Assembly: GCA_013815345.1 (NCBI GenBank)
Contig: JACDGK010000001.1
Span: 67,076-102,433, forward strand
DNA from: Patescibacteria group bacterium
GTDB taxonomy: Bacteria; Patescibacteriota; Minisyncoccia; Phycocordibacterales; Phycocordibacteraceae
DNA length: 35,358 bases
Reading direction: 5' to 3'
Position 1 is the stretch's first letter, and each line of letters begins with the position of its first letter. Both the position numbers and the translations under genes were made by a program. This document shows, in pieces, positions 1,357 to 29,133 of the stretch. Below the pieces are notes generated by a model. The model did not search any database. It had not been told where the DNA came from and saw only the letters and a list, made by a program, of their open reading frames with translations.

Positions 1357-2238
1357 CTATTGTACCCCACTCTCGGTTGCTGCGTCTATAAAACTATCCA
1401 GATCACCGGCTAAAACAGCGTCAGGATCATGCGATTCATGCCCCGTTTCGTGGTCCTTGACCAATTTATACGGGTGGAGAATGTACGAACGTATCTGACT
1501 TCCCCATTCGTTGGCGGTTGTAGCGGCAATTGAACGCCCTTTTGCCTCGGCATCACGTTTTTTCTCCTCTATCGCAAATAGTTTTGCCTTGACGAGATCG
1601 AGCGCCTTTTCACGATTTGCTTGTTGGCTGCGCTCGCTCGATACGTGCACAGAGACTCCTGACGGGATGTGCGTAATGCGAACTGCGGTCTCGCGTTTGT
1701 TCACATTTTGGCCGCCCGCTCCTCCGGAGCGGGCAAACTGTATTTCCAAATCGTCCGGCTTGAGCTCGATCTTGTCTGTTACAGAAAGCTTCGGAAGTAC
1801 TTCTACGAGCGCAAACGATGTCTGACGCTTGTCGTTTCCATTAAAAGGAGAGATGCGCACCAGACGATGCACGCCTGACTCACGTTTGAGTCGACCATAC
1901 ACTCCCTTGCCGGTGATTTCTATCAACACATTACGAAAACCTCCGTGATCGTTTTCGTTCGCATGTAATTCCCATACACTCCAATTTTTATTTTCTGCAT
2001 ACCCTTCGTACATTCGTCTTAGCATGCGAGCAAAATCTTCAGCGTCATCCCCACCGGCGCCAGCAAGAATCGCAAGGGTCGCAGGTCCCGCATCGTGATT
2101 GTCGCCATCACCGCCTTCTTTTAGATTTTGATATTCACGGACGAGTCGCTGTGCGTTGTCTTTGTCTGCCCAGAAATCTGGCGTCGCCATGAGGGCTTCG
2201 ATTTCCGAAAGTCGTCTTTGCTGCTCTTCTGCGTTCAT
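1357..2238 (-). CDS. prfB: Peptide chain release factor 2, shortened domain I
   Basis: GGQ motif ([11 protein letters not shown]) and RF2-type SPF motif ([16 protein letters not shown]). The likely start is MNAEEQQ at 2238; the track ORF start at 2271 lies inside a palindrome. Confidence 0.88.
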
Positions 2239-2245
2239 CTGGTTG

Positions 2246-2251
2246 AGTATA
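2246..2251 (-). promoter_or_regulatory. Predicted extended -10 of prfB (TGCTATACT), 7 nt upstream of ATG
   Basis: Complement reads TTTTGC TATACT CAACCAG ATG. Confidence 0.5.
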
Positions 2252-2292
2252 GCAAAAGTCACCCTGCACAAGTGCAGGGTGACTTTTGCTAT
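2249..2292. terminator. 44-bp perfect palindrome (21-bp arms, 2-nt loop), terminator-like
   Basis: ATAGCAAAAGTCACCCTGCAC-AA-GTGCAGGGTGACTTTTGCTAT, between tRNA-Thr(CGT) and prfB. Confidence 0.75.
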
Positions 2293-11274: not shown

Positions 11275-11304
11275 AGAAAGACCGCCCACATGAGCGGTCT
11301 TTCT
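11275..11304. terminator. Terminator-like hairpin, 11-bp arms
   Basis: AGAAAGACCGC-CCACATGA-GCGGTCTTTCT. Confidence 0.65.
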
Positions 11305-11320
11305 GTAATTTCGAACGTTG

Positions 11321-11433
11321 GCGCGGTCGAAGGGACTTGACTCGCGTCACTAAGCTCGAAGGCTCGCTAAGTGCGCCAGCCGCGGCTCAGCATTCATGCC
11401 CCGCAGGAATGCTTCCGCCGTTCAAGTCCCTTC
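11321..11433. repeat. tRNA-Asp-3'-end-derived palindromic element, candidate structured RNA
   Basis: 11321-11340 (GCGCGGTCGAAGGGACTTGA) is identical to 11488-11507 at the tRNA-Asp 3' end. GAAGGGACTTGA (11329-11340) and TCAAGTCCCTTC (11422-11433) form perfect 12-bp inverted arms. Confidence 0.7.
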
Positions 11434-11449
11434 TCTCACACATGAGATA

Positions 11450-11482
11450 CAGAAAATGCCGGAAAGAATCCGGCATTTTCTG
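11450..11482 (-). terminator. Intrinsic terminator of tRNA-Asp, 13-bp arms
   Basis: CAGAAAATGCCGG-AAAGAAT-CCGGCATTTTCTG, just downstream of the tRNA-Asp 3' end. Confidence 0.75.
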
Positions 11483-11488
11483 ATCTAG

Positions 11489-11562
11489 CGCGGTCGAAGG
11501 GACTTGAACCCTCGATCTCCGCCGTGACAGGGCGGCGCTTTAACCAGCTAAGCTACGACCGC
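11489..11562 (-). tRNA. tRNA-Asp(GTC)
   Basis: GCGGTCG/CGACCGC acceptor, anticodon loop CTGTCAC, T-loop TTCAAGT. Confidence 0.94.
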
Positions 11563-11670
11563 AAACGAAGCTAACTTTCAGACTTTAACGGTTTTTCGGC
11601 CTTCCAGCAAGGGTTTTAAATAAATCTCGAAGTGCAACAAGTCCCCACGCTGTATTTAATATAAATAGGG

Positions 11671-11742
11671 TGCCGGCGGGTGGAGTCGCGCCACCGTCTA
11701 GGGTTTATGAGTCCCTCGTTCTAACTCTTGAACTACGCCGGC
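11671..11742 (-). tRNA. tRNA-Met(CAT), elongator-type, with non-canonical D- and T-loops
   Basis: GCCGGCG/CGCCGGC acceptor (G1-C72), D-arm GTTC-AAGAGTTA-GAAC, anticodon loop CTCATAA, T-arm GGTGG-CGCGACT-CCACC. Confidence 0.85.
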
Positions 11743-11813
11743 ATTCAGAGGAATAGGCACTCTCCTCAGTAGCTTTACCTTACTATCTTATGGCTTCGTC
11801 TTCAAGAATTCCA

Positions 11814-17112: not shown

Positions 17113-18337
17113 GGATCAGGGGAGTTGCATGTGCCCTTTTAATATAATCGGGGAGAACCGCTGCGAGATGCTTTTTATATGAGCTTTGTTCCGCGACTAA
17201 TTCCTTAAATAAGATAAGGAGTTTCTCGGCCGTGACGTCTTCTATCTTGATGACCCATGTATCAAGACCCAGGTCATGCATAATACCGCTTGTTTTATAC
17301 TCATATTCAATTGCTATCGCCGGAACGTAACTGGTAAGACTAAAAATAACCGAATGAAATCGAGTGCCGATCACAAAATCTAAATCGTTATATACTGCTT
17401 TGATCTCATAGTGATCGTAGTCATTATGGAGTATTCGTGCTCCCTCTTTTTCATTCATACGGATATAGACCCTTTCGGCTGTATCACGGTCGTCATCATG
17501 ATGATATTTCGCCGTTACTTGAGGTATGAAAAGTACGGTCATCGCATAGTCACGTATGACCGCATCAGCGAAGGTCGCAACAGCCTGTTCATATTGAGCC
17601 TGTGCGGCTTGATTAAGCCACTTTCGAACCGTTACACCTATAATGGGCACGATGCGAGGAATGCTAAAATCAGCATGTAAATCTCTCCTGATCGCTGTCG
17701 ATAAAGAGAATCCGCTATCAATCGACCGAGTCATATTCGTGAGACCGAATCGTTGTAATAAAGTAAATGAAACGTCTTCACGTACAATGATGCCGTCCAT
17801 CTTTTTAAGTATGTACGTCGCAAAATATCGTTGTAACTTCGAGCCAAAGGGTCCGATCGACTGGGCATACAGAATAGTAGGCTTACCGAGAATCGCACTG
17901 AGAAGTAATGGGTGGAGAAGCAGGAGCAAAATAACCGTACTGCCGTACTCCGGATTTCCTCTAAGATATCCTCCGCCAACTGGCGCAATGAGATTTGTCT
18001 CACGATAGAGCGCGCAGAGTTCTTGTAAATGAGAAGGGAGCGGTAGATTTACTTTAGCGATTCTATAGAGTACTGCCCAGAGCAACGTGCTCGCCATTAC
18101 AAAAAAAGCATAGAGTAATTTGAGCGCTCGATTTTCGTAACGCGTAATGGCCCAGTACATAAAAGCGTTTCTCACTGGTACCTCTTCAAATTTCTCATTT
18201 TTTCTTACTTGGTCAATAGTAAGAATTGTTATCTTCGGATTATCAAAAATATTCTTTAAATCATTGATTAGCACGCTTAGGAGCGCAGCGTCACCTTTAT
18301 TTTCTTTCGAGAATACGTGTGAAATTATTATCTTCAT
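17060..18337 (-). CDS. Polysaccharide pyruvyl transferase family protein
   Basis: MKIIISHVFSKENKGDAALLSVLI; APVGGGYLRG; LYAQSIGPFGS; DFVIGTRFHSVIFSL. Confidence 0.83.
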   Translation of the reverse strand: MKIIISHVFSKENKGDAALLSVLINDLKNIFDNPKITILTIDQVRKNEKFEEVPVRNAFMYWAITRYENRALKLLYAFFVMASTLLWAVLYRIAKVNLPLPSHLQELCALYRETNLIAPVGGGYLRGNPEYGSTVILLLLLHPLLLSAILGKPTILYAQSIGPFGSKLQRYFATYILKKMDGIIVREDVSFTLLQRFGLTNMTRSIDSGFSLSTAIRRDLHADFSIPRIVPIIGVTVRKWLNQAAQAQYEQAVATFADAVIRDYAMTVLFIPQVTAKYHHDDDRDTAERVYIRMNEKEGARILHNDYDHYEIKAVYNDLDFVIGTRFHSVIFSLTSYVPAIAIEYEYKTSGIMHDLGLDTWVIKIEDVTAEKLLILFKELVAEQSSYKKHLAAVLPDYIKRAHATPLILKQKYEQYETVRQHKIK

Positions 18338-19502
18338 GAAAAATATCCTCGTATATACACTCAAGTTGATCAACAAAGCGCTCAACACTAAAAAACGTAG
18401 AGGCAGTAGCCGCCGCCCTGCCCATTTCGATTAGAGAATTTTTATCTCCAAGAATCTTACGTATTGCCGCACTCAGAACTTTTGCATCCTTCGGAGGTAC
18501 AAGATATCCTGTTTTTCCATCCTCAATTAACTCAGGAATGCCTCCGGTCGTGGTACCTATCACCGGTCGTCCTACGGCAAATGCTTCGAGGCAAACCGTG
18601 GGAAAATTTTCAGGCCAAATAGAAGGTATCACCACTAACGAAGCAGCTTCGTATTCACGGAGAATATCTTTTGCTTGAATCCATCCATGAAAAACTATCC
18701 GGTCAGTAAGTCCGAGCTCATTTCCTAGAATCTCGAGTTCACACCGGTATGCACCATCCCCCACTATATGTAACTCTATCTGAGGAATGGTAGCAAGAAC
18801 AGCAACAAAAGCACGTAGCAAGTAGTCTACCCCTTTTATTTTTTCAAGTCTTCCTACATATAAAACTCTTCGGGTCGTGGAAAGCGGTTTATATACCGGA
18901 AGCTCAATACCATTATATATCTGAATGATCTTTTCCACTGATACGTCGGTACACAAAGCTTCAGTAATATATCTGCTCGACGCAATGAAGATTTTAATGC
19001 GACGAAGCGCAATAAGATAGAGTGGGCGTTGAATATACCGATAAAACCAGAACCGCAGGGTACCCATGAACGTTAAATCCTTTAGATCGAAAGGATTTTT
19101 CTTATAATCTTTCGGTAGAAGAAACCAGGGCAATAATTTGACGATAAATTCTTCCGGCCCATGAATAGTCATCATTGCAGGAATGTTTCGAGCGGCAAAA
19201 AGGACTGAAGGTGAACATGCTCCTAATGTATGGAAGTGGATAAGATCAGGACGAAAATCATTGATTGCTTTTCGCATCGCACGATACGAGGGAATATAAA
19301 AAAGGTGATGAAAGACTTTAAAAAACGAGTTATGAGGGATTGATTTGAATTCATAATCACTAAATTTCCCGCTACCTTGTAGATCTGAAGACAGAACTTT
19401 CACCTCATGACCTCGCTTCTGTAACTCATGCTGCATTGAAAGAACCAGTGTTTCAGCACCTCCGGCAAGATAGCCCGTACTAATGACATGCAGGATTTTC
19501 AT
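18297..19502 (-). CDS. Glycosyltransferase family 4
   Basis: N-terminal ISTGYLAGGAETLVLSM; VGRLEKIKGVDYLLRAF; PSIWPENFPTVCLEAFAVGRPVIGTTTGGIPELIEDG. Confidence 0.9.
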   Translation of the reverse strand: MKILHVISTGYLAGGAETLVLSMQHELQKRGHEVKVLSSDLQGSGKFSDYEFKSIPHNSFFKVFHHLFYIPSYRAMRKAINDFRPDLIHFHTLGACSPSVLFAARNIPAMMTIHGPEEFIVKLLPWFLLPKDYKKNPFDLKDLTFMGTLRFWFYRYIQRPLYLIALRRIKIFIASSRYITEALCTDVSVEKIIQIYNGIELPVYKPLSTTRRVLYVGRLEKIKGVDYLLRAFVAVLATIPQIELHIVGDGAYRCELEILGNELGLTDRIVFHGWIQAKDILREYEAASLVVIPSIWPENFPTVCLEAFAVGRPVIGTTTGGIPELIEDGKTGYLVPPKDAKVLSAAIRKILGDKNSLIEMGRAAATASTFFSVERFVDQLECIYEDIFHEDNNFTRILERK

Positions 19503-19503
19503 T

Positions 19504-20799
19504 TTACGATCTTTTGAAAGAGGGGTGCGTCACGTGGCTGAGGTACAGTGCGATTCTCTTTTCTCCGATAAAATCGGCATCATATTTACTTCGGCTGGCC
19601 GTTAAAGCCTTTCCCATTATGACGCTTTGATCGGGATGAGTAATAAAATACTTCATGGCAGCGACCATCTGCTCCACATTTCCCATTTCTATGAGAAAAC
19701 CCGTTTTGCCATCCTCGATACCTTCTGTTGCTCCTCCTACGGCAGTTGCAATAACGGGCGTACCGACCGAGATGCCTTCAAGGATAAATCTTCCAAACGG
19801 CTCTGGCCATCGTGAGGGCGCAATAATGGCCAATGATTCCCGGTAAAAGGTGAGTACTTTAGAAGGTTCTACTCTCCCGAGCAAGGTTACGCAGTCCAAT
19901 TGCTTTTCTTTAATATAATCACTAAGTTTTTCGAAATCTGCGCCTGTTCCTGCAATTTTTATGGAAAACGACTCTTTTACTTCGGTTTTAAGAATTTCTA
20001 CGGCCGCGATCAGATCCCAAATCCCTTTCTCCTTTTCGATACGTCCTCCATACGCAAATGTTGGAGTGCTCGCCTTCACGACGGATTGGGTTGTATCAAA
20101 ACTTTGCGAAATATTATTAATCATTACCGTCTTGTCGGCATGAAAACCATTAAGGATTAACTGTTTCTGCACATATCGGCTATTAGGTACCAGTGTTATG
20201 TCGTGAGAATGATTTATGACATACCGAAGAGACGATTTATATAGGTTGAATACAAGTGACTCGTAGAGCGCGAAGGGAGTAGCGAAAAGTTGCAAAAACG
20301 CATTATTGGTTCGATAGCCTTTGTTCAGACATTTGAATCCGTGATGGGACTGAAGAGGATCGTCTATTTCATTATCCCTAAATTGAGCCGGACAAATCAA
20401 ACTATAATCACGGCAGTCTATAAAAAGAGGAATTTTCGTAAAAAATTTAATTGCGAGAATTATCGGTGTGAAATAGAAGGGCGTAATGACTATGTTTACG
20501 ACATCAGGCTTGAGTTTTTTTAGCAATCGAAGAACTCGAATTGAAGAAATACAAGGTATGAGAAGAATATCAAATGCATACCGTATTGAAGCGAGGGCAC
20601 TCTTGGTACCTACCGATGCCCGGAGAAGTATTGGATACACGGTAACGTCGTTTTCTACCCACGGTGAATTTCTAAACTCAGAACAAGCAACGGAGACTGT
20701 ATGTTTTTGAGTAAGCCAACGAGCAACCAATGAGGTGCTTATTTCTGCGCCTCCCTCAATATACGGAGGATAATTCTCTGAGATAAATAAAATGTTCAT
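19504..20799 (-). CDS. Glycosyltransferase family 4
   Basis: ENYPPYIEGGAEIS; GRIEKEKGIWDL; APSRWPEPFGRFILEGISVGTPVIATAVGG. Confidence 0.9.
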   Translation of the reverse strand: MNILFISENYPPYIEGGAEISTSLVARWLTQKHTVSVACSEFRNSPWVENDVTVYPILLRASVGTKSALASIRYAFDILLIPCISSIRVLRLLKKLKPDVVNIVITPFYFTPIILAIKFFTKIPLFIDCRDYSLICPAQFRDNEIDDPLQSHHGFKCLNKGYRTNNAFLQLFATPFALYESLVFNLYKSSLRYVINHSHDITLVPNSRYVQKQLILNGFHADKTVMINNISQSFDTTQSVVKASTPTFAYGGRIEKEKGIWDLIAAVEILKTEVKESFSIKIAGTGADFEKLSDYIKEKQLDCVTLLGRVEPSKVLTFYRESLAIIAPSRWPEPFGRFILEGISVGTPVIATAVGGATEGIEDGKTGFLIEMGNVEQMVAAMKYFITHPDQSVIMGKALTASRSKYDADFIGEKRIALYLSHVTHPSFKRS

Positions 20800-23189
20800 C
20801 GATAGATTCGCGTGCCGCCGTTGTTATAAATAAGGTCTTTATTTACATCAAGAAATTGAATCGGGTATGAATACGGCACGAGATCTCCATTAAAACTAAA
20901 GGCAGCTTCATGATCCTTAACGGTGCCATACCCTAAGAATATAAAAGAATTTTTTCGAATTAAATCAGGAAAAATATCGTTAAAGGGTCGCAAATCAGTT
21001 AATGATTCAAACTTTCCTCGAGTAAGGAGGTCAGTGGATATTTCAAACTGAATATGACTGGTATCTCCTCCTTCGGCAATTAATGACGATACCAACCAAT
21101 TTACCCCATACACCTCAGTACCTTTTGTAACATAATTATCATAATAAATACCTAAGTTGTTTAGATGAAGTGCGGGTACATTGCCGCCGAGTATTTGCGG
21201 AATGAAAGAAGTTGAATAAAGGAAAAAGAGCACGAGAAGCCCTAATGAAAAACGTCCACTGAATTTTGCAAAAGTAAGGCGTCGATTTACTAATCTAAGA
21301 AGACTCGTTATCCATTTTCCGAGTGCCGTACTCCCGATAACGATAATAAACCCAAGTACGAATAATGATTGCTGTAGAGCTCTAAAGACTCCGTATTGAG
21401 CTGATAACACTGGGAGCACAAGATTTAAAAATATGAAGATAAGACAAAATGAAGCTACCAGGTAGAGTTCGCTATCAATCTTTTTTAATGAGGAGTTTCT
21501 ATACAGTATGTACAACATACCGATCGGCGCTAATATCTCTAGCAATTTTGCAAGTAGTTGTTCAAGAAAAGATGACGTGGCACTACTATTAATGCCAAAC
21601 CAATTTATAAATTGACCGAGTACGGTCGCAGGAAGCTTCTCATTGTCGAGGACCCGAATCGGATACTGACTATAGCTCGCTTGGGGATAGTACGTCCCAG
21701 GGGGCGCCGCGTCTCGTAGCGGACCTACGATGTCAGTGATGAAATTTTGAAGTTCATGTGTATGGTCTATTTTTGCAAAACTTAGCAAACTTAGCGCATC
21801 AATAGATTTATTGTTTCCCGCAGAGCCTGCTTGAATAGCAGAGATAGTTTGGGTAATAACAGAAGTAATACTGTTGCTTGTTTGGGTAATTGTTGAGGTC
21901 CATAAAAAACTTGCTAGCACGAGGAATGTGATCATGAGGAACGTGATGCGAGATTTTTTAAAAGCTCTTTCACCGGAAACAAATAGGCCTGTTTTTAAAA
22001 AGTATGATTTCCTTTGCAAGAAGGAAAAAATAGTTGCGAAAAGTGGTTTTGAGACGACCACGAGGCCAAAGACAAAAAGAATAGTGTAGGTAGTGGAATA
22101 ATGAGAAAGTATGACGCCAATTCCCATAATGACAAATAGCGCTCTTCGTAATCGCAGCGATATTCCCGGCTCAAAAATGATATACAACATGAGTCCAAAA
22201 AAGAGAAAGGCTATTTCCTGCCGCACGATGAACGGCATATCGCTAAAGAAGGTGGGAAATGCAATAAAATAGAGAGCGCCAAGTAATGCGTTACGGGCAC
22301 TGGTCCATCGAAGGCCAATTAAATAAACTAGCACTGCACAAAGTGCGAAAAATATCTGAAAGAAAATCTTGAATACGTACTGATCCAGCACTCTGAGGAG
22401 ATTCGTAAATAGAGTGGGCAATATCGTAATGCTTAGGCACGCATTGTACGCATCCCGATACGCGGCCATACTCCACAAACCACTTGTCTTAGCGAGTTGG
22501 AACACCTGCGTCTCTCGTTGAATATCATGTCCCGTCACATACCATCCGCGAAGACTCGTCATGAAAAGAAGCGATACGGTCATAAAAAAAAGTGCCGTGG
22601 GAATCACATTTTTATCCGCCGAATCGCTCTGGCGTACCAAGAGCGGAATATAGAGCGCCATAGAACCAAGCATTATCAGGGTAATTATTCCGCTTCCTCC
22701 ATCATTCAAATGAATGGCACCGAGTACCGACAAAATGACGAAGAGTATCGGCGTAAGGGCGATGACTGCGTCACGAGCAGTATCAAAAAGCACATAAGGC
22801 TTACATTGTATTTCGATATCCTTTACGCGTAGCCAAACGATACCCATTAAGATACTTACTAAAAGGTATATATCGAACAAAAGAAAGGGTCTATCAAGTG
22901 GTCGTGCTACACCAACAAATGGGAGAAGGGTATTACCCAAAAGAACACTGACCATTAATTCAAGAATGCTAAATCCAATTATCACTACGAGATAACCCCA
23001 GAAGGGGAGGTTTTTTATCTCAAGAGCAAATACCGTCAAAAGGCCCGGGACGAGTGAGAGAAAGAGAAATCCTACAATATTCAGCACTTCAAAATGATTG
23101 AATTGTGTTATCGAGAGCGCGAAAAATAAACCCATCCATACAACGGTTCCGAGAAAAAGGTGCGTACGGGTTAGAATGAGAGCTTTCAT
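20796..23189 (-). CDS. Large multi-pass membrane protein (797 aa), DUF2206-like; candidate polymerase or glycosyltransferase-C-type protein
   Basis: Many TM segments, GWYVTGHDIQRETQVFQLAKTSGLW loop, soluble C-terminal region; 4-bp overlaps with both neighbours. Confidence 0.6.
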   Translation of the reverse strand: MKALILTRTHLFLGTVVWMGLFFALSITQFNHFEVLNIVGFLFLSLVPGLLTVFALEIKNLPFWGYLVVIIGFSILELMVSVLLGNTLLPFVGVARPLDRPFLLFDIYLLVSILMGIVWLRVKDIEIQCKPYVLFDTARDAVIALTPILFVILSVLGAIHLNDGGSGIITLIMLGSMALYIPLLVRQSDSADKNVIPTALFFMTVSLLFMTSLRGWYVTGHDIQRETQVFQLAKTSGLWSMAAYRDAYNACLSITILPTLFTNLLRVLDQYVFKIFFQIFFALCAVLVYLIGLRWTSARNALLGALYFIAFPTFFSDMPFIVRQEIAFLFFGLMLYIIFEPGISLRLRRALFVIMGIGVILSHYSTTYTILFVFGLVVVSKPLFATIFSFLQRKSYFLKTGLFVSGERAFKKSRITFLMITFLVLASFLWTSTITQTSNSITSVITQTISAIQAGSAGNNKSIDALSLLSFAKIDHTHELQNFITDIVGPLRDAAPPGTYYPQASYSQYPIRVLDNEKLPATVLGQFINWFGINSSATSSFLEQLLAKLLEILAPIGMLYILYRNSSLKKIDSELYLVASFCLIFIFLNLVLPVLSAQYGVFRALQQSLFVLGFIIVIGSTALGKWITSLLRLVNRRLTFAKFSGRFSLGLLVLFFLYSTSFIPQILGGNVPALHLNNLGIYYDNYVTKGTEVYGVNWLVSSLIAEGGDTSHIQFEISTDLLTRGKFESLTDLRPFNDIFPDLIRKNSFIFLGYGTVKDHEAAFSFNGDLVPYSYPIQFLDVNKDLIYNNGGTRIYR

Positions 23190-24298
23190 ATAGAGACTTC
23201 TTTATATATTTCCTCAACCGTGCCTACCAACTCCTCCCACGAATAATTTTGAGCTTTCTCAAGGCTCGATCGTGAGAGTATTTTTAATTTCTCTGGGTGT
23301 TCGATAATGTCCGTAATAGCAGCAGCAAACGTCTCCGGTGAGGGAGTATCGACGAGTATTCCAACATCTTGGAGGAGTTCGGAAATACCTGGGACGTCAG
23401 ATCCGATTATAGGTAGTGCGGCGGCCATAGCTTCGAGAGCCACTAAGGGCATTCCTTCTATGTCAGATGGCATGACCAGAACATCAGCATTTCGGTAATA
23501 GTCTTTTAATTCTTCGCCGTATTTTTTACCAGCAAAAGTAACATTGGTAAGAGCAAGTTTTTCGGTAAGATTCTCTAACTTTTCTCTGTCTTCTCCATCG
23601 CCCACAATCGTGAGTTCAATTGGCACAGTAAGTAGTGCAAGCGCCGAAATAACTCGCTCTACCCTCTTCTGAACAGCGAGCCGTCCAACGTATAAAAGCC
23701 GCAGAGGTGTGTGATGAGTCGTGCGCGGCTCGTGTGCAAAGAATGACTTCCCTACTCCATTTGGAACGATTCGTATATTATTTTTAGAAACCTTGTATTC
23801 CTTTTGAATAAAATCTCCTTGCTCATCGGAAAGAACGATGACTTTGGTTGCGTGGCGCAAGGTACGAGACAACACGTGTTTTTTATACAAAGGGAGAAGC
23901 GCACCAAAAGAGCCAGAAGGGCCAACATCGAGATGATAATGCCCGATGAACGCAAAACCTCGCAGCTTCGCAGCGAGCAAAACGATCTCTGGAATGCCGG
24001 CTTGAGCAATATGGACATGCAAGATCGTTCCTCGAGGCAAAAAGAATATGCGGAAAAATAATGACCACATGACAGGAGTATGTGCAATCTCGGTGCTTTT
24101 TAAGCGCGTCACTTCATAGAATGGTTCGCGTTCGTGAGAAGGGGCACCTTCGGCGCCCACATCGGAAGTTAAAACGCGAACGTCATACTCTCTTCGTGCG
24201 AGCTCCTGAGCTATTTCATAAGCAACCGCCTCCATGCCGCCGATATGGGGCGGATAGTAGGCTGTTATATGAACAGTAGACGGTTGTTTCTTTTCCAT
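23186..24298 (-). CDS. Glycosyltransferase family 4
   Basis: YYPPHIGGMEAVAYEIAQEL; LLYVGRLAVQKRVERVI; MPSDIEGMPLVALEAMAAALPIIGSDVPGI. Confidence 0.92.
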   Translation of the reverse strand: MEKKQPSTVHITAYYPPHIGGMEAVAYEIAQELARREYDVRVLTSDVGAEGAPSHEREPFYEVTRLKSTEIAHTPVMWSLFFRIFFLPRGTILHVHIAQAGIPEIVLLAAKLRGFAFIGHYHLDVGPSGSFGALLPLYKKHVLSRTLRHATKVIVLSDEQGDFIQKEYKVSKNNIRIVPNGVGKSFFAHEPRTTHHTPLRLLYVGRLAVQKRVERVISALALLTVPIELTIVGDGEDREKLENLTEKLALTNVTFAGKKYGEELKDYYRNADVLVMPSDIEGMPLVALEAMAAALPIIGSDVPGISELLQDVGILVDTPSPETFAAAITDIIEHPEKLKILSRSSLEKAQNYSWEELVGTVEEIYKEVSI

Positions 24299-24303
24299 AC
24301 CTC

Positions 24304-25461
24304 TTACGAAAGGTCTTTAAAGACCTGCGATACGTCACTCGCGATCTGCTGCCAACTATACTGTTCTGTCATAAGTCGTCGTCCTCGTTGACCCATACTA
24401 TTCCTTTCATCAGTGTTTTTTAGGATGCGAATTATTGCTTCAGCTAATTTCACGGAGTCAGCAGGAGGTATAACGTATCCGGTGCGATGTTTCTCAATAT
24501 CTTTCGTTATGCCTGCGACGTCTGTGGTAACAACCGCCAACTCGCTTGCCATAGCTTCAAGAAGCACGATACCAAACCCTTCTATCTCGATTGAAGGGAG
24601 GACGAACACTTTCGAGTTCTGGTAATAGGAAACCAGTTCCTCTTGCGTCTTAGGACCGTGGAATTCGATTACCTTCTCTAAGCCAAGTGCTGCTGCTTTT
24701 TCACGATATTCTGATACAAGTATTCCTTCTCCCACAACGATTAGTTTTATATTCGGTATTTCAGACTGTATACGTACCATCGCATCGAGCAGATACTCAA
24801 AACCTTTAAATCGATGGTGCTCGTCGAGGATTGAAACAAAGAGAATCGTATTTCCCGTTGATTTTGCGAGCGAGGGTTTAAAAAAGTCGGTATCAATGCC
24901 GTTTGGTATCGTGACTATTTTATTTTTGAAACGATTGAGTAGCCGACGTGTATTTTTGAAAGCAGTTCTCCATTCAGGATTTACAATAATGATTTTATTC
25001 GTTAGTAACAGAGTAAGCTGAAAGAAGGTGTGAAGGTACACCCACGTGATTATTTTGCCCACCACATCCGGCTTATCCATATCATTATGAATAGTCAGCA
25101 CCGATCGCTTTCCTTTCAATTTTGCAATCAGCACTGTTAGATCAGCCGTCCAGGGCGTCGGCATGTGCGCGTGGCCAATATCAAAGTCCGTCTTCCATAA
25201 AACGGACGGGAGACTGCTGGAAATATTTGTATTTGCGACTTTAAATTTGTATGAGAGTCTCTTTACGCTGATGTTATTTTCTATGATTTCCTCTTCCTTA
25301 CTCTCCGTTTCGTTAGCACACACCACGAGTATATCGTAGTTCAATTTGGTGAGCTGTTTTGCAAGATAATAGACATGGTTCTCAACACCGCCGATATAAG
25401 GATGAAAACGGATGGGTGTTTCGAGTATTCGGATCTTGGTTTTTTTATTATCTTTTTTCAT
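24304..25461 (-). CDS. Glycosyltransferase family 4
   Basis: FHPYIGGVENHVYYLAKQL; LPSIEIEGFGIVLLEAMASELAVVTTDVAGI. Start at MKKDNKK. Confidence 0.9.
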   Translation of the reverse strand: MKKDNKKTKIRILETPIRFHPYIGGVENHVYYLAKQLTKLNYDILVVCANETESKEEEIIENNISVKRLSYKFKVANTNISSSLPSVLWKTDFDIGHAHMPTPWTADLTVLIAKLKGKRSVLTIHNDMDKPDVVGKIITWVYLHTFFQLTLLLTNKIIIVNPEWRTAFKNTRRLLNRFKNKIVTIPNGIDTDFFKPSLAKSTGNTILFVSILDEHHRFKGFEYLLDAMVRIQSEIPNIKLIVVGEGILVSEYREKAAALGLEKVIEFHGPKTQEELVSYYQNSKVFVLPSIEIEGFGIVLLEAMASELAVVTTDVAGITKDIEKHRTGYVIPPADSVKLAEAIIRILKNTDERNSMGQRGRRLMTEQYSWQQIASDVSQVFKDLS

Positions 25462-26608
25462 ACTCCAACAGTATCTTACTATACTCAGCACCTCGATCAT
25501 TCCAATTGAATCCTTGCACTACTTTATGGTATCCCGCTATGCCAAACGTGCGTTCGAGTTCGGGATTCTGCAGGAGTTCCAAAAGCTTTTCTTTCAGCAG
25601 GCCAACGTTTCCTGGTGGGATTAAAAATCCCGTTTGAGAATCGGTAACCAGCGAGGGAATATCGCCAATATTGCTCGCAACCACCGGCAAACCTGAAGCC
25701 ATAGCTTCAATAATTGTCATGCCGAAACTCTCGTTTATTGAAGGAAGCGCAAAAACATGGGCACGCTGATATTGTTCAGACAGATCTGCGCCGGTAAGTC
25801 TACCGGTGAAAGAAACATTTTTTTGTAAATCAAGTTCTTTTACCTTGTGTTCATATTCATTTCTCATATCTCCGTCACCAACAATGACCAAATGTACGTT
25901 CGGCATCTCTGACTGCAATGCTTTGACTGCTTCGATAAGGGTGATAAGACCTTTATGTTGTTCTGCTATTCCAAGACCTGCGACGAAGAGTATTGTGGGT
26001 CGTTTTGCTCTTTTTTCCGGCATAGGACTGAAGATACTGACATCTACTGCAGGAGTAATAGTACTTGTTTTAGCTGAATATTTGCTTAAAAAATTTAATC
26101 GAACGGAATTTGACGAACATATAATGTGGTTAGCTCTTCGAAGAAGCATGCCAAGCGGTCCATTTTCATACAACGCGATGAGGATATTAATGAGACAAAG
26201 ATTACTTTTGTCAGATTTCATCATGCTGCCGGCATGATAGGTAACGATGACTGGTCGTTTTCCCGCAAGCATGGCTGTGATATCGCCAATTCCCGGGACG
26301 GGCATGTGGATGTTGATGACATTCGGATTTTCTTCTTTAAGGATTTTCTGGATCTTGGTAACCCAACTTACAGAAAAAGGAGTGTTAGAGAGCTTAAAAT
26401 AATATCCCAGACGATACACCGTCAGCCCGCTCATCTCTATTTTTTCATCATGCCCATACCGTTCACTGGTCGTAATGACAACGACATGCCAATGGTGTTG
26501 TTTCTGGAGGCGAGTGGCTATTTCAAAAGCGTATTTCTCTAAGCCGCCGCCATGCGGTGGAAAATAAGGAGCGACTATGGCAAGTGTTTGTTGTTTTAAA
26601 TCATTCAT
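25448..26608 (-). CDS. Glycosyltransferase family 4
   Basis: PYFPPHGGGLEKYAFEIATRL; LPSINESFGMTIIEAMASGLPVVASNIGDIPSLV. Confidence 0.92.
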   Translation of the reverse strand: MNDLKQQTLAIVAPYFPPHGGGLEKYAFEIATRLQKQHHWHVVVITTSERYGHDEKIEMSGLTVYRLGYYFKLSNTPFSVSWVTKIQKILKEENPNVINIHMPVPGIGDITAMLAGKRPVIVTYHAGSMMKSDKSNLCLINILIALYENGPLGMLLRRANHIICSSNSVRLNFLSKYSAKTSTITPAVDVSIFSPMPEKRAKRPTILFVAGLGIAEQHKGLITLIEAVKALQSEMPNVHLVIVGDGDMRNEYEHKVKELDLQKNVSFTGRLTGADLSEQYQRAHVFALPSINESFGMTIIEAMASGLPVVASNIGDIPSLVTDSQTGFLIPPGNVGLLKEKLLELLQNPELERTFGIAGYHKVVQGFNWNDRGAEYSKILLEYEKR

Positions 26609-27303
26609 ACCAATTCTTGGTTTGTCAGATAGCGAACACCCTCCCGCTTACTGATGTATTGCAGAACATTCTCCAGCCGTTCCCAATCGTTATTTTTTTC
26701 TATTTCCCAGGAATGTCCCCAGAGATGAAAGACTCCTCCTTCTGATCGAGTCTTTTCGAAAAGTACGATTGCGAGATAATCCCAATTCAAATAGCTTTTA
26801 AAAAATCGGCGCACGCCGACTTCCTTTAGAATAGGCAGTGCGTCTGACCAGTGCCGATAGGCATGAATGGTGGTGGGTAGTGCGTAGACATCGCTACCGA
26901 TAGCGGTAGCGAAACGCTTCACGGTACGGGCAAGAGTAAAACCTGCTTCCTGTACCATGTTCTCATGTCGTTTCTCCCAAAAGCCGCTCGGGTAACAAAA
27001 GCTCGAAATCGGTGTTTGCACTATTTTTTCGAGGTATTCTTTTGAATCATCGATTTCCTTCCGCGCATCCTCATCCGATAGTTTCGTGAGGTCAGGATGC
27101 GTCATGGTGTGCGCACCGATTTCAAAATCTTGGGCGAGTGTTACGATTTGTTGATTGGTTAATCGATCTTGTATAGGGAATTCTCTATCTTCCGGAGAAA
27201 TATAAAAAGTTCCTTTAATCTCGTATTTTCGCAGAAGCTCTGAAAGTTTTACATCCAGAACGTGTCCATCGTCCCAGCTGGTTGTTACAATCGTTTTTTT
27301 CAT
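26605..27303 (-). CDS. Polysaccharide deacetylase (NodB/CE4-like)
   Basis: TTSWDDGHVLDVKLSELLRKYEIKGTFYISP; IGAHTMTHPDLTKLS; SSFCYPSGFW. Confidence 0.87.
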   Translation of the reverse strand: MKKTIVTTSWDDGHVLDVKLSELLRKYEIKGTFYISPEDREFPIQDRLTNQQIVTLAQDFEIGAHTMTHPDLTKLSDEDARKEIDDSKEYLEKIVQTPISSFCYPSGFWEKRHENMVQEAGFTLARTVKRFATAIGSDVYALPTTIHAYRHWSDALPILKEVGVRRFFKSYLNWDYLAIVLFEKTRSEGGVFHLWGHSWEIEKNNDWERLENVLQYISKREGVRYLTNQELV

Positions 27304-27306
27304 AGG

Positions 27307-29133
27307 TTATACCCACGAGAGCTCGATATTCTGCATTACATTTTTCCAGTCATGCTGCTCGATACCCTGCTGCGGACTCATGAGGTCAGGGTTGTCGAGA
27401 ACAAGCTGAATTTTTTGAGCGATTTCGTGCTCGTTTGGCTGCACAAGATACCCGTTCACGCCTTCACGAATGAGGTCTTTCGCAGCATTATCCTGGTGAG
27501 AGGTAGTAATGACAGGTAGACCTGCGGCATGAGCTTCAACAACAACCATGCTGAATCCTTCCCGCACCGAAGGCAGTACAAGTAGTTTTGATGCCTTCAT
27601 GAGGCTATAGATACCGATGTTATGTTCGATTCGATCAACGATCTTTATATTTCCCTGAAGACCAAGACTTTTAATAAGCGTTCGGATTGCAGACTTTTCG
27701 GGGCCATCGCCTACTATCACTCCTCGAATATCGGGAATATTTTCTTTGAGAATTCCCATTGCTTTTACGAAGAGCTCAACGTTCTTATGCTTGAGAAAAC
27801 GGCCGACCATGATAACGTCGCTTTCTTGATTTGAAGGAATCGTATTGTAAATCTCTTCAAGATCAGCCCCGGGAGGAATCGTCTTTATCGCACATCGCAC
27901 ACTGGCCTGCTGAAGACGTCGCGTGGTATGCCATGAATTAGAAATGATGACATCTGGAAGTTTGAAAGAAAGTTCTTCGATAATGTATCCGATCCAGCCT
28001 TGGGGTCCGTTTAGATATTCCATCCAATAGTCTTTACCCCATACTTCATGCCATGTCGCGTAAAGCTTCTTACCCCTTAGCCACGTAACAATGCGCGCGC
28101 TGAAGATAGGAAAAAATGGTATGTGGTCGACATCGAGCACATCAAAAGAAGCGAAGAGAAGCTTGAAGGTGGCAAGACTGAACCAGATAGCCTGCACCAT
28201 GGAGCGACGCTCACCGCTATAGAGTGGATGAAGTTTACAGAGAGCGTGGAAATATACTCCATCTTCTTGTATGACTTTTGGGCCTTCCCACCACTTCATT
28301 GTATAAATATGCACTTCTCTCCCCTCTTGCACGAGTCGGCGAGAGATTTCATAGAGACGTTTTTCTTTACCTCCTTTATGAAAGGGCATGACAGCATCAG
28401 AAACGAATGCGATGCGTTGCACTTGCGGTTGCCACAATAGATTCTTCAGGAACATACCAAGGATCCGAACACCATCTGAAATCGGATTCAACGAAGAATC
28501 GCCCGCACGCGAATCGTAACTAATCGGGACTGAGGTAATTTCTTCTCCTAGCTGTGCCATTTTGGTAATCATTTCCATTTCTATAGCAAATCCTTGAGAG
28601 GTGAGATGCGGACGCAACCGCATAAGGGCCTCGCGCTTCCAGGCAAAGTAGCCCGTAAGCACATCGGTAACATTCACTCGATAAAAAATGCGAACAAGAT
28701 GGGTGAAGACCAAATTACCAAAGCGGTTAAAGCTCGTCATCGAATCGACTCCGATACGGCCCCCGAGACGAGAGCCGATCACCACGTCAGAAAATCCTGA
28801 CTCGAGAGGCTCAATGAGGCGCAATAATTCTGAGGCACGATACGTGTCATCTCCATCGAGCATTACGATAAAATCAGTATCTTCCGAGACCTTATCAATA
28901 CCGAGTCGCAATGCATTCCCTTTGCCTTTCTTTGGTTCGTACAAAACAGTAGCACCATGAGCACGCGCGATCTCCGCGGTACGATCACTCGAATTATTGT
29001 CGATAACGATGCATTGAAGTTCGTAGCCGTTTATTCGGGCTTTTTCGGTAGGAAAACTTGTGAGAACATCAGCAATTCCTTGCTCTTCGTTAAAGCATGG
29101 AATAAGGACGGTGATTTTTGAGGTTGAAGTCAT
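27307..29133 (-). CDS. Bifunctional glycosyltransferase: N-terminal GT2 fused to C-terminal GT4
   Basis: GT2: LIPCFNEEQGIADVL...VMLDGDDTYRASELLRLIEPL. GT4: DAVMPFHKGGKEKRLYEISRRL...LPSVREGFSMVVVEAHAAGLPVITT. Confidence 0.88.
   Translation of the reverse strand: MTSTSKITVLIPCFNEEQGIADVLTSFPTEKARINGYELQCIVIDNNSSDRTAEIARAHGATVLYEPKKGKGNALRLGIDKVSEDTDFIVMLDGDDTYRASELLRLIEPLESGFSDVVIGSRLGGRIGVDSMTSFNRFGNLVFTHLVRIFYRVNVTDVLTGYFAWKREALMRLRPHLTSQGFAIEMEMITKMAQLGEEITSVPISYDSRAGDSSLNPISDGVRILGMFLKNLLWQPQVQRIAFVSDAVMPFHKGGKEKRLYEISRRLVQEGREVHIYTMKWWEGPKVIQEDGVYFHALCKLHPLYSGERRSMVQAIWFSLATFKLLFASFDVLDVDHIPFFPIFSARIVTWLRGKKLYATWHEVWGKDYWMEYLNGPQGWIGYIIEELSFKLPDVIISNSWHTTRRLQQASVRCAIKTIPPGADLEEIYNTIPSNQESDVIMVGRFLKHKNVELFVKAMGILKENIPDIRGVIVGDGPEKSAIRTLIKSLGLQGNIKIVDRIEHNIGIYSLMKASKLLVLPSVREGFSMVVVEAHAAGLPVITTSHQDNAAKDLIREGVNGYLVQPNEHEIAQKIQLVLDNPDLMSPQQGIEQHDWKNVMQNIELSWV

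Follow-up and report, generated by a model that had tools for sequence, protein, structure and literature searches.

The window is a 35,358-nt stretch of contig JACDGK010000001.1 from a Patescibacteria group bacterium. It carries a tRNA-Met and a tRNA-Asp gene, both on the minus strand, and therefore the whole locus is read on that strand. Element coordinates are window positions. Behind tRNA-Asp lie, in minus-strand order, a hairpin (T1), an inverted copy of the tRNA 3' end (arm A'), a core of ~80 nt, and a direct copy of the tRNA 3' end (arm A), with no gene inside the unit (Table 1). The original prediction had reported an exact 20-nt repeat of the tRNA-Asp 3' end (11321-11340 and 11488-11507) and an inverted copy with 12-bp arms at 11420-11433. 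Both hold, the first with 20/20 nt identical and the second with 14 nt matching the 3' part of the tRNA and 12 nt matching the direct copy. The 14-mer of the A' arm occurs twice in the whole window versus 0 times in 100 shuffles. The fold predicted for the minus strand, either as RNA or as DNA, is a stem A'/A bearing two branches, and the strand is more stable than its shuffled versions (RNA z of -6.3 with the distal hairpin and -3.7 without it; DNA z of -4.8). The earlier description of the element as derived from tRNA-Asp is correct for the arms alone, as the core is not tRNA-derived. Elsewhere in the window, a long run of glycosyltransferase-like genes (18297-29133, minus strand) is presumably a surface polysaccharide cluster, and a release-factor-like ORF (1357-2271, minus strand) seems to continue N-terminally in a different frame, which may reflect the programmed frameshift usual in prfB.

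Table 1. Features of the tRNA-Asp locus (window positions).
Feature	Position	Strand	Basis
tRNA-Met	11668..11743	(-)	ARAGORN
tRNA-Asp (gtc), gene with the unit inserted behind; 3' end at 11488	11488..11562	(-)	ARAGORN; Rfam 72 bits
Inserted 167-bp unit	11321..11487	(-)	Without it, tRNA-Met, tRNA-Asp and native terminator are arranged as in G020 and G010
Hairpin T1, part of the unit, 14-bp arms, terminator-like	11450..11482	(-)	Missing from empty sites
Inverted arm A', complementary to T-loop and 3' side of the T-stem of tRNA-Asp	11420..11433	(-)	14/14 nt; family arm ends at T54
Core branch P2/hp1 (GGCGG..GAGCC)	11384..11419	(-)	Covarying helix in the family
Core branch P3/hp2, motif ACTTAG..CTTAGTGAC at 11346-11372, extrahelical A and T•T mismatch	11341..11383	(-)	Pattern match, model R1 match, covariation
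Direct arm A, repeats the last 20 nt of tRNA-Asp; displaced end if insertion	11321..11340	(-)	20/20 nt
T2, native tRNA-Asp terminator, now downstream of the unit	~11275..11304	(-)	Homologous hairpin directly behind tRNA-Asp in G020 and G010

Two genomes of the same genus, G020 (locus L006) and G010 (locus L007), have tRNA-Met and tRNA-Asp in the same order, and there tRNA-Asp runs straight into CCAACGTT.. and a homologue of the window's distal hairpin. The window without the unit aligns with both, whereas alignment scores are lower with the unit kept (119 instead of 182, and 130 instead of 193). Because these empty sites carry the distal hairpin directly after tRNA-Asp, it is the native terminator. 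Thus, the two strong hairpins between which the unit was originally placed are present, but only one of them is a neighbor: T1 belongs to the unit, and the coherent unit is 11321-11487 on the minus strand with T1 included. The possibility that T1 is a copy of T2 was rejected, with a clear likeness in just 1 of 23 intact cases. A second pair of sites is found at tRNA-Gln, filled in G136 (unit of ~191 bp, repeat of ~19 bp) and empty in G140; the native trailer AGTGCACACGAAT.. stands behind the tRNA in the empty site and behind the direct arm in the filled one. By parsimony both pairs would represent gains, the alternative being an exact loss between the repeats.

The core is also present behind other tRNA genes. 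In BLASTN it is 85% identical over 47 nt to a sequence behind tRNA-Ala of G047, where the tRNA-Ala end is repeated on both sides of it, once inverted and once direct, and a palindromic version of it is located behind tRNA-Asp in G096, from another family of the order. The pattern ACTTAGN{6,36}CTTAGTGAC gave ~105 copies in 47/395 relatives versus ~11 with the reversed pattern as a control, and these counts are lower bounds because the pattern misses many copies (in G160, 0 by the pattern and 11 by the covariance model R1). The architecture is common to many tRNA isotypes and tmRNA: tRNA, hairpin, inverted end, core, and direct end, with arms matching the local tRNA. The original prediction had proposed looking for recurrence next to other tRNA 3' ends, and a same-strand tRNA or tmRNA 3' end is indeed found <600 nt upstream in 64 of 71 distinct cores; three of the 7 others lie at contig edges. 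The median distance from tRNA to core is 70 nt, and the 12 copies (of 64) that begin >170 nt from the tRNA are mostly later units of arrays. At other loci with no called tRNA, Rfam gives tmRNA or group I introns nearby (the introns at L047:5182-5484, L056:8683-8942 and L116:1113-1391). These introns presumably sit in tRNA genes, which would explain the tRNAs missed by the caller.

Two classes of limits are observed. In one, the T-loop class, T54 is the last position of the inverted arm, and position 56/57, 7 nt past CTTAGTGAC, is the first of the direct arm; in the other, the inverted arm spans no more than roughly the final 5 nt of the tRNA. A sample of 20 further model matches has the same architecture in most cases, and two of them, both in G281, lie within partial tRNA copies. 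At L273:900-1210 the element breaks the T-arm of a degenerate tRNA-Gly-like gene, just before an intact tRNA-Gly that is in turn trailed by another element-like unit. At L275:930-1201 it has a partial 5' copy of tRNA-Pro on one side and an intact tRNA-Pro on the other; therefore, insertion near the D-arm occurs too. The family is wider than model R1, since core relatives without ACTTAG exist at L112 (G438, tRNA-Gly) and L113 (G483, tRNA-Ala). These distant cores retain GCCGGAG..GAGGCGGGGTCG..GTGACC together with the tRNA arms.

The 20-bp repeat includes the T-loop, which is a usual attB (PMC2647930), as would be left by a phage, island, or satellite that once integrated at tRNA-Asp and was then lost. 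Such an ordinary att duplication, the plain integration scar of the original prediction, is contradicted by the recurrence of the core at many tRNAs, where both its fold and the inverted arm are common to many of them, and by its multiple copies and strong covariation. Moreover, there are no genes between tRNA and core, most element-rich genomes have an Xer-type recombinase only, and no match was found in phages, plasmids or viral contigs (the latter scanned with the narrow pattern only). We consider this origin highly improbable. An attenuator of the tRNA, in which, on read-through, A' would have two alternative partners, the 3' end of the tRNA and its downstream copy, agrees with the complementarity of A' to both, with the common strand, and with the short distance to the tRNA. 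However, the terminator-like T1 usually precedes A', later array units are far from the tRNA, and the element is patchily present, at many isotypes and tmRNA, so that this reading is very unlikely as well.

The covariance model R1 rests on 24 cores and a structure drawn by hand, and its E-values are rough. In the R1 core fold 89.7% of the cells pair, and double changes occur in 20/30 pairs. Covariation among homologues, another check proposed originally, scores 0.413 versus 0.05-0.09 for controls with slid partners. Both motif halves are uninformative in this respect, being set by the search pattern, whereas P2, the outer P3, and the upper hairpin lie outside of it. One P2 pair is G-C in 25, C-G in 24, A-T in 9, and T-A in 4 sequences, with no exception among the 62. 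The linker is exactly 12 nt long in 58/62 sequences (11 nt in the window copy). On the tRNA-sense strand there are 44 G•T versus 17 A•C pairs, and because of this excess the tRNA-sense strand appears, from sequence comparison, to be the one that folds. The G•T share is 6.6% in the core and 5.0% in tRNA acceptor stems. A CTGC loop caps 30 of the 168 hairpins near the elements (L045-L104), in positions adjoining the tRNA or inside the inverted arm. This is an enrichment, CTGC being outside the ten commonest loops among 346 hairpins elsewhere. A search of Rfam 15 gave no family above the gathering score for the element, and the permissive mode gave nothing credible.

Most of the genomes are MAGs, and N runs occur at the hairpins of a few copies, as might be expected of an assembly artefact, but this explanation, like that of a chance palindrome, is contradicted by copies in MAGs of many studies, by the covariation, and by the exact boundaries, and its probability is negligible. 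The main rival to a mobile cassette is a functional structured ncRNA (acting, e.g., in tRNA maturation or as the RNA part of an RNP) copied beside tRNA genes, with the terminal stem taken from the tRNA end and the distal terminator ending the RNA. The conserved branched fold with its non-canonical motifs and compensatory changes, a G•T share near that of acceptor stems, the prevalence of G•T over A•C on the sense strand, and the downstream terminator all argue for such an RNA; selection for RNA function would also preserve the fold, and to that extent counts against the cassette. On the other hand, the element is absent from many relatives and orthologous tRNAs, its copy number ranges from 0 to 27, it has no Rfam match, and ahead of the core there is usually a terminator-like hairpin and no space for an obvious promoter. 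Overall, a structured RNA seems to us rather unlikely.

In respect to distribution, R1 finds 10-27 copies in many genomes (27 in G281, 22 in G240, 21 in G259) and zero in others, in a selected panel that is not random. Those with zero include the genus of G133 and G137, sister to the element-rich genus of G136, G139, G140, and G143. In an even sample of the phylum under stricter filters the element is present in 9/288 genomes. Most genomes at first deemed element-free carry copies once scanned with the better model, R1. A scan for the main subtype in 85,462 species genomes gave 33 loci, nearly all in Patescibacteria, with hosts that include Kaiser-, Campbell-, Yonath-, Nomura- and Wolfebacteria. 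The genome of the window has two copies by R1. The second one (G000:C9:157447-157528, locus L110) is outside the window and has a direct arm, CAATCCCCCACCTCCACA, resembling a tmRNA 3' end, with no tmRNA or tRNA called within 1.5 kb. Our literature searches, which covered few subscription papers and no preprints, found no description of such an element, and the family is apparently undescribed so far.

The small mobile element, one of the options in the original prediction, is well supported by the empty sites, by related cores at different tRNAs, and by arrays. Of 71 copies, 17 have their most similar core within their own genome, versus 1.7 expected, usually at another tRNA and with unlike arms, as for tRNA-Asp and tRNA-Ala in G096 or tRNA-Ala, -Leu, and -Ile in G158; G245 has a near-identical pair of cores, with neither tRNA called by ARAGORN. 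Gene conversion between resident copies could also yield such related cores. Taken together with the empty sites and arrays, they are best read as movement, and the insert is probably a member of a gene-less, non-autonomous family of mobile cassettes that targets tRNA/tmRNA 3' ends in Paceibacteria. As for the enzymes, a tyrosine recombinase (PF00589) is present in every tested genome, mostly as the sole one, and equally in element-free genomes; from its length and universality we take it as Xer-type. No dedicated tyrosine integrase was found in most element-rich genomes. The Y1 transposase (PF01797) is absent from G240, G096, G225, and G247 (22, 13, 10, and 17 copies, respectively) and the reverse transcriptase (PF00078) from 12/16 element-bearing genomes. 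RAYT/Y1 and reverse-transcriptase mobilizers were rejected as requirements, since the genes are absent from many rich genomes.

For the movement of the cassette we suggest the following scheme. The active form would be the tRNA-sense single strand, with A' paired to A and the core as a branched cap. Its point of attachment would be either the T-loop, where A' stops at T54 and A begins at 56/57, or a site close to the acceptor end. Attachment would proceed by single-strand exchange of the sort known for integron attC sites or phage CTX, by hairpin-primed copying of a folded-back strand, in which the inverted arm would be written from the local tRNA, or by both. This step would fall to the housekeeping Xer recombinase or to a factor in trans, one of which would have to act because no dedicated enzyme was found. 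The limits [1-56][57-76]-T1-A'-core-[57-76]-T2 are those that would be expected from a one-strand T-loop exchange between the tRNA gene and a folded circle (core-A-T1-A'). New units would enter at the same site beside the tRNA, with older ones shifted outward, as in arrays. One-strand exchange alone does not explain arms that match the local tRNA. Plain crossover of the folded circle was rejected as the full mechanism and retained as a part of it, as it fits the unit limits and not the differing arms of near-identical cores. Palindromes spanning the tRNA through the trailer are found around hairpin T1 and look like products of hairpin-primed copying. At yeast breaks, short insertions templated by fold-back have been documented (PMC11724301). 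No single known mechanism fits all the observations, because it would have to account both for arms matched to the local tRNA and for a T1 that was not copied from T2. Folded single-strand exchange and/or hairpin-primed copying is thus offered as a tentative mechanism, possible rather than probable. With similar reserve, the element may represent a novel type of mobile element, in which a folded cassette without genes lands at tRNA/tmRNA genes and each time has its inverted arm rewritten from the local tRNA by hairpin-primed copying. One core could thus be refitted to any tRNA, and in place of its own enzyme the cassette would rely on a housekeeping recombinase or on replication.

If this is true, a mobile family with up to 27 copies per ~1-Mb genome has been unnoticed in one of the largest bacterial groups, and essential tRNA genes can serve as general landing sites by means of carried, adapted copies of their ends. 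Folded-strand recombination would then reach beyond integrons and filamentous phages, or else a new structured RNA is revealed. The observations bear on the plasticity of the reduced CPR genomes, and the covariance model allows the family to be tested directly in further genomes.

Among known systems, REP/BIME palindromes with their RAYT (Y1) transposases and MITEs are short, non-coding, repeated, hairpin-forming, and mobilized in trans. The element shares the first four of these features and would likewise be mobilized in trans, but its arms match the target and Y1 genes are missing from several rich genomes. In the E. coli tyrT operon, the rtT repeats (Rfam RtT), like the element, are located behind a tRNA and each hold a copy of its 3' end; however, they are confined to one locus and lack the inverted arm and common core, and no RtT match was found in the element loci. 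In CTX-type phages and other elements that use it, the host Xer acts on a folded strand and the target is dif. The element would likewise pair a folded single-strand site with a housekeeping recombinase, the role of Xer being putative here, while its target is tRNA and not dif. Integrative elements that target tRNA and tmRNA genes use att sites at the T-loop and 3' end (Williams 2002, as cited in PMC2647930). With these the element has in common the direct duplication of the tRNA 3' end, the empty site in relatives, the position of crossover at the T-loop, and the intact upstream tRNA; in contrast, its units of 167-191 bp have neither genes nor their own integrase, carry an additional inverted copy of the tRNA end, and occur as one family at many isotypes. 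The element lacks defining features of tRNA integrative elements, of REP/RAYT, of retroelements (group II intron, retron, DGR), and also of attC cassettes. Integron attC sites have a folded single strand with paired boxes, an unpaired spacer, an extrahelical base, and strand asymmetry, and their cassettes form arrays stacked behind one receiving site (PMC2727003). The element has no recognized attC boxes and no cassette gene between sites, its receiving sites are many tRNA genes instead of attI, and its arms copy the local tRNA. Its fold nevertheless has a bulged A, an internal loop, and a T•T mismatch, a likeness of form only, and strand asymmetry and arrays are present in it too. By analogy, the attC cassette would be the known system that works most like the element.
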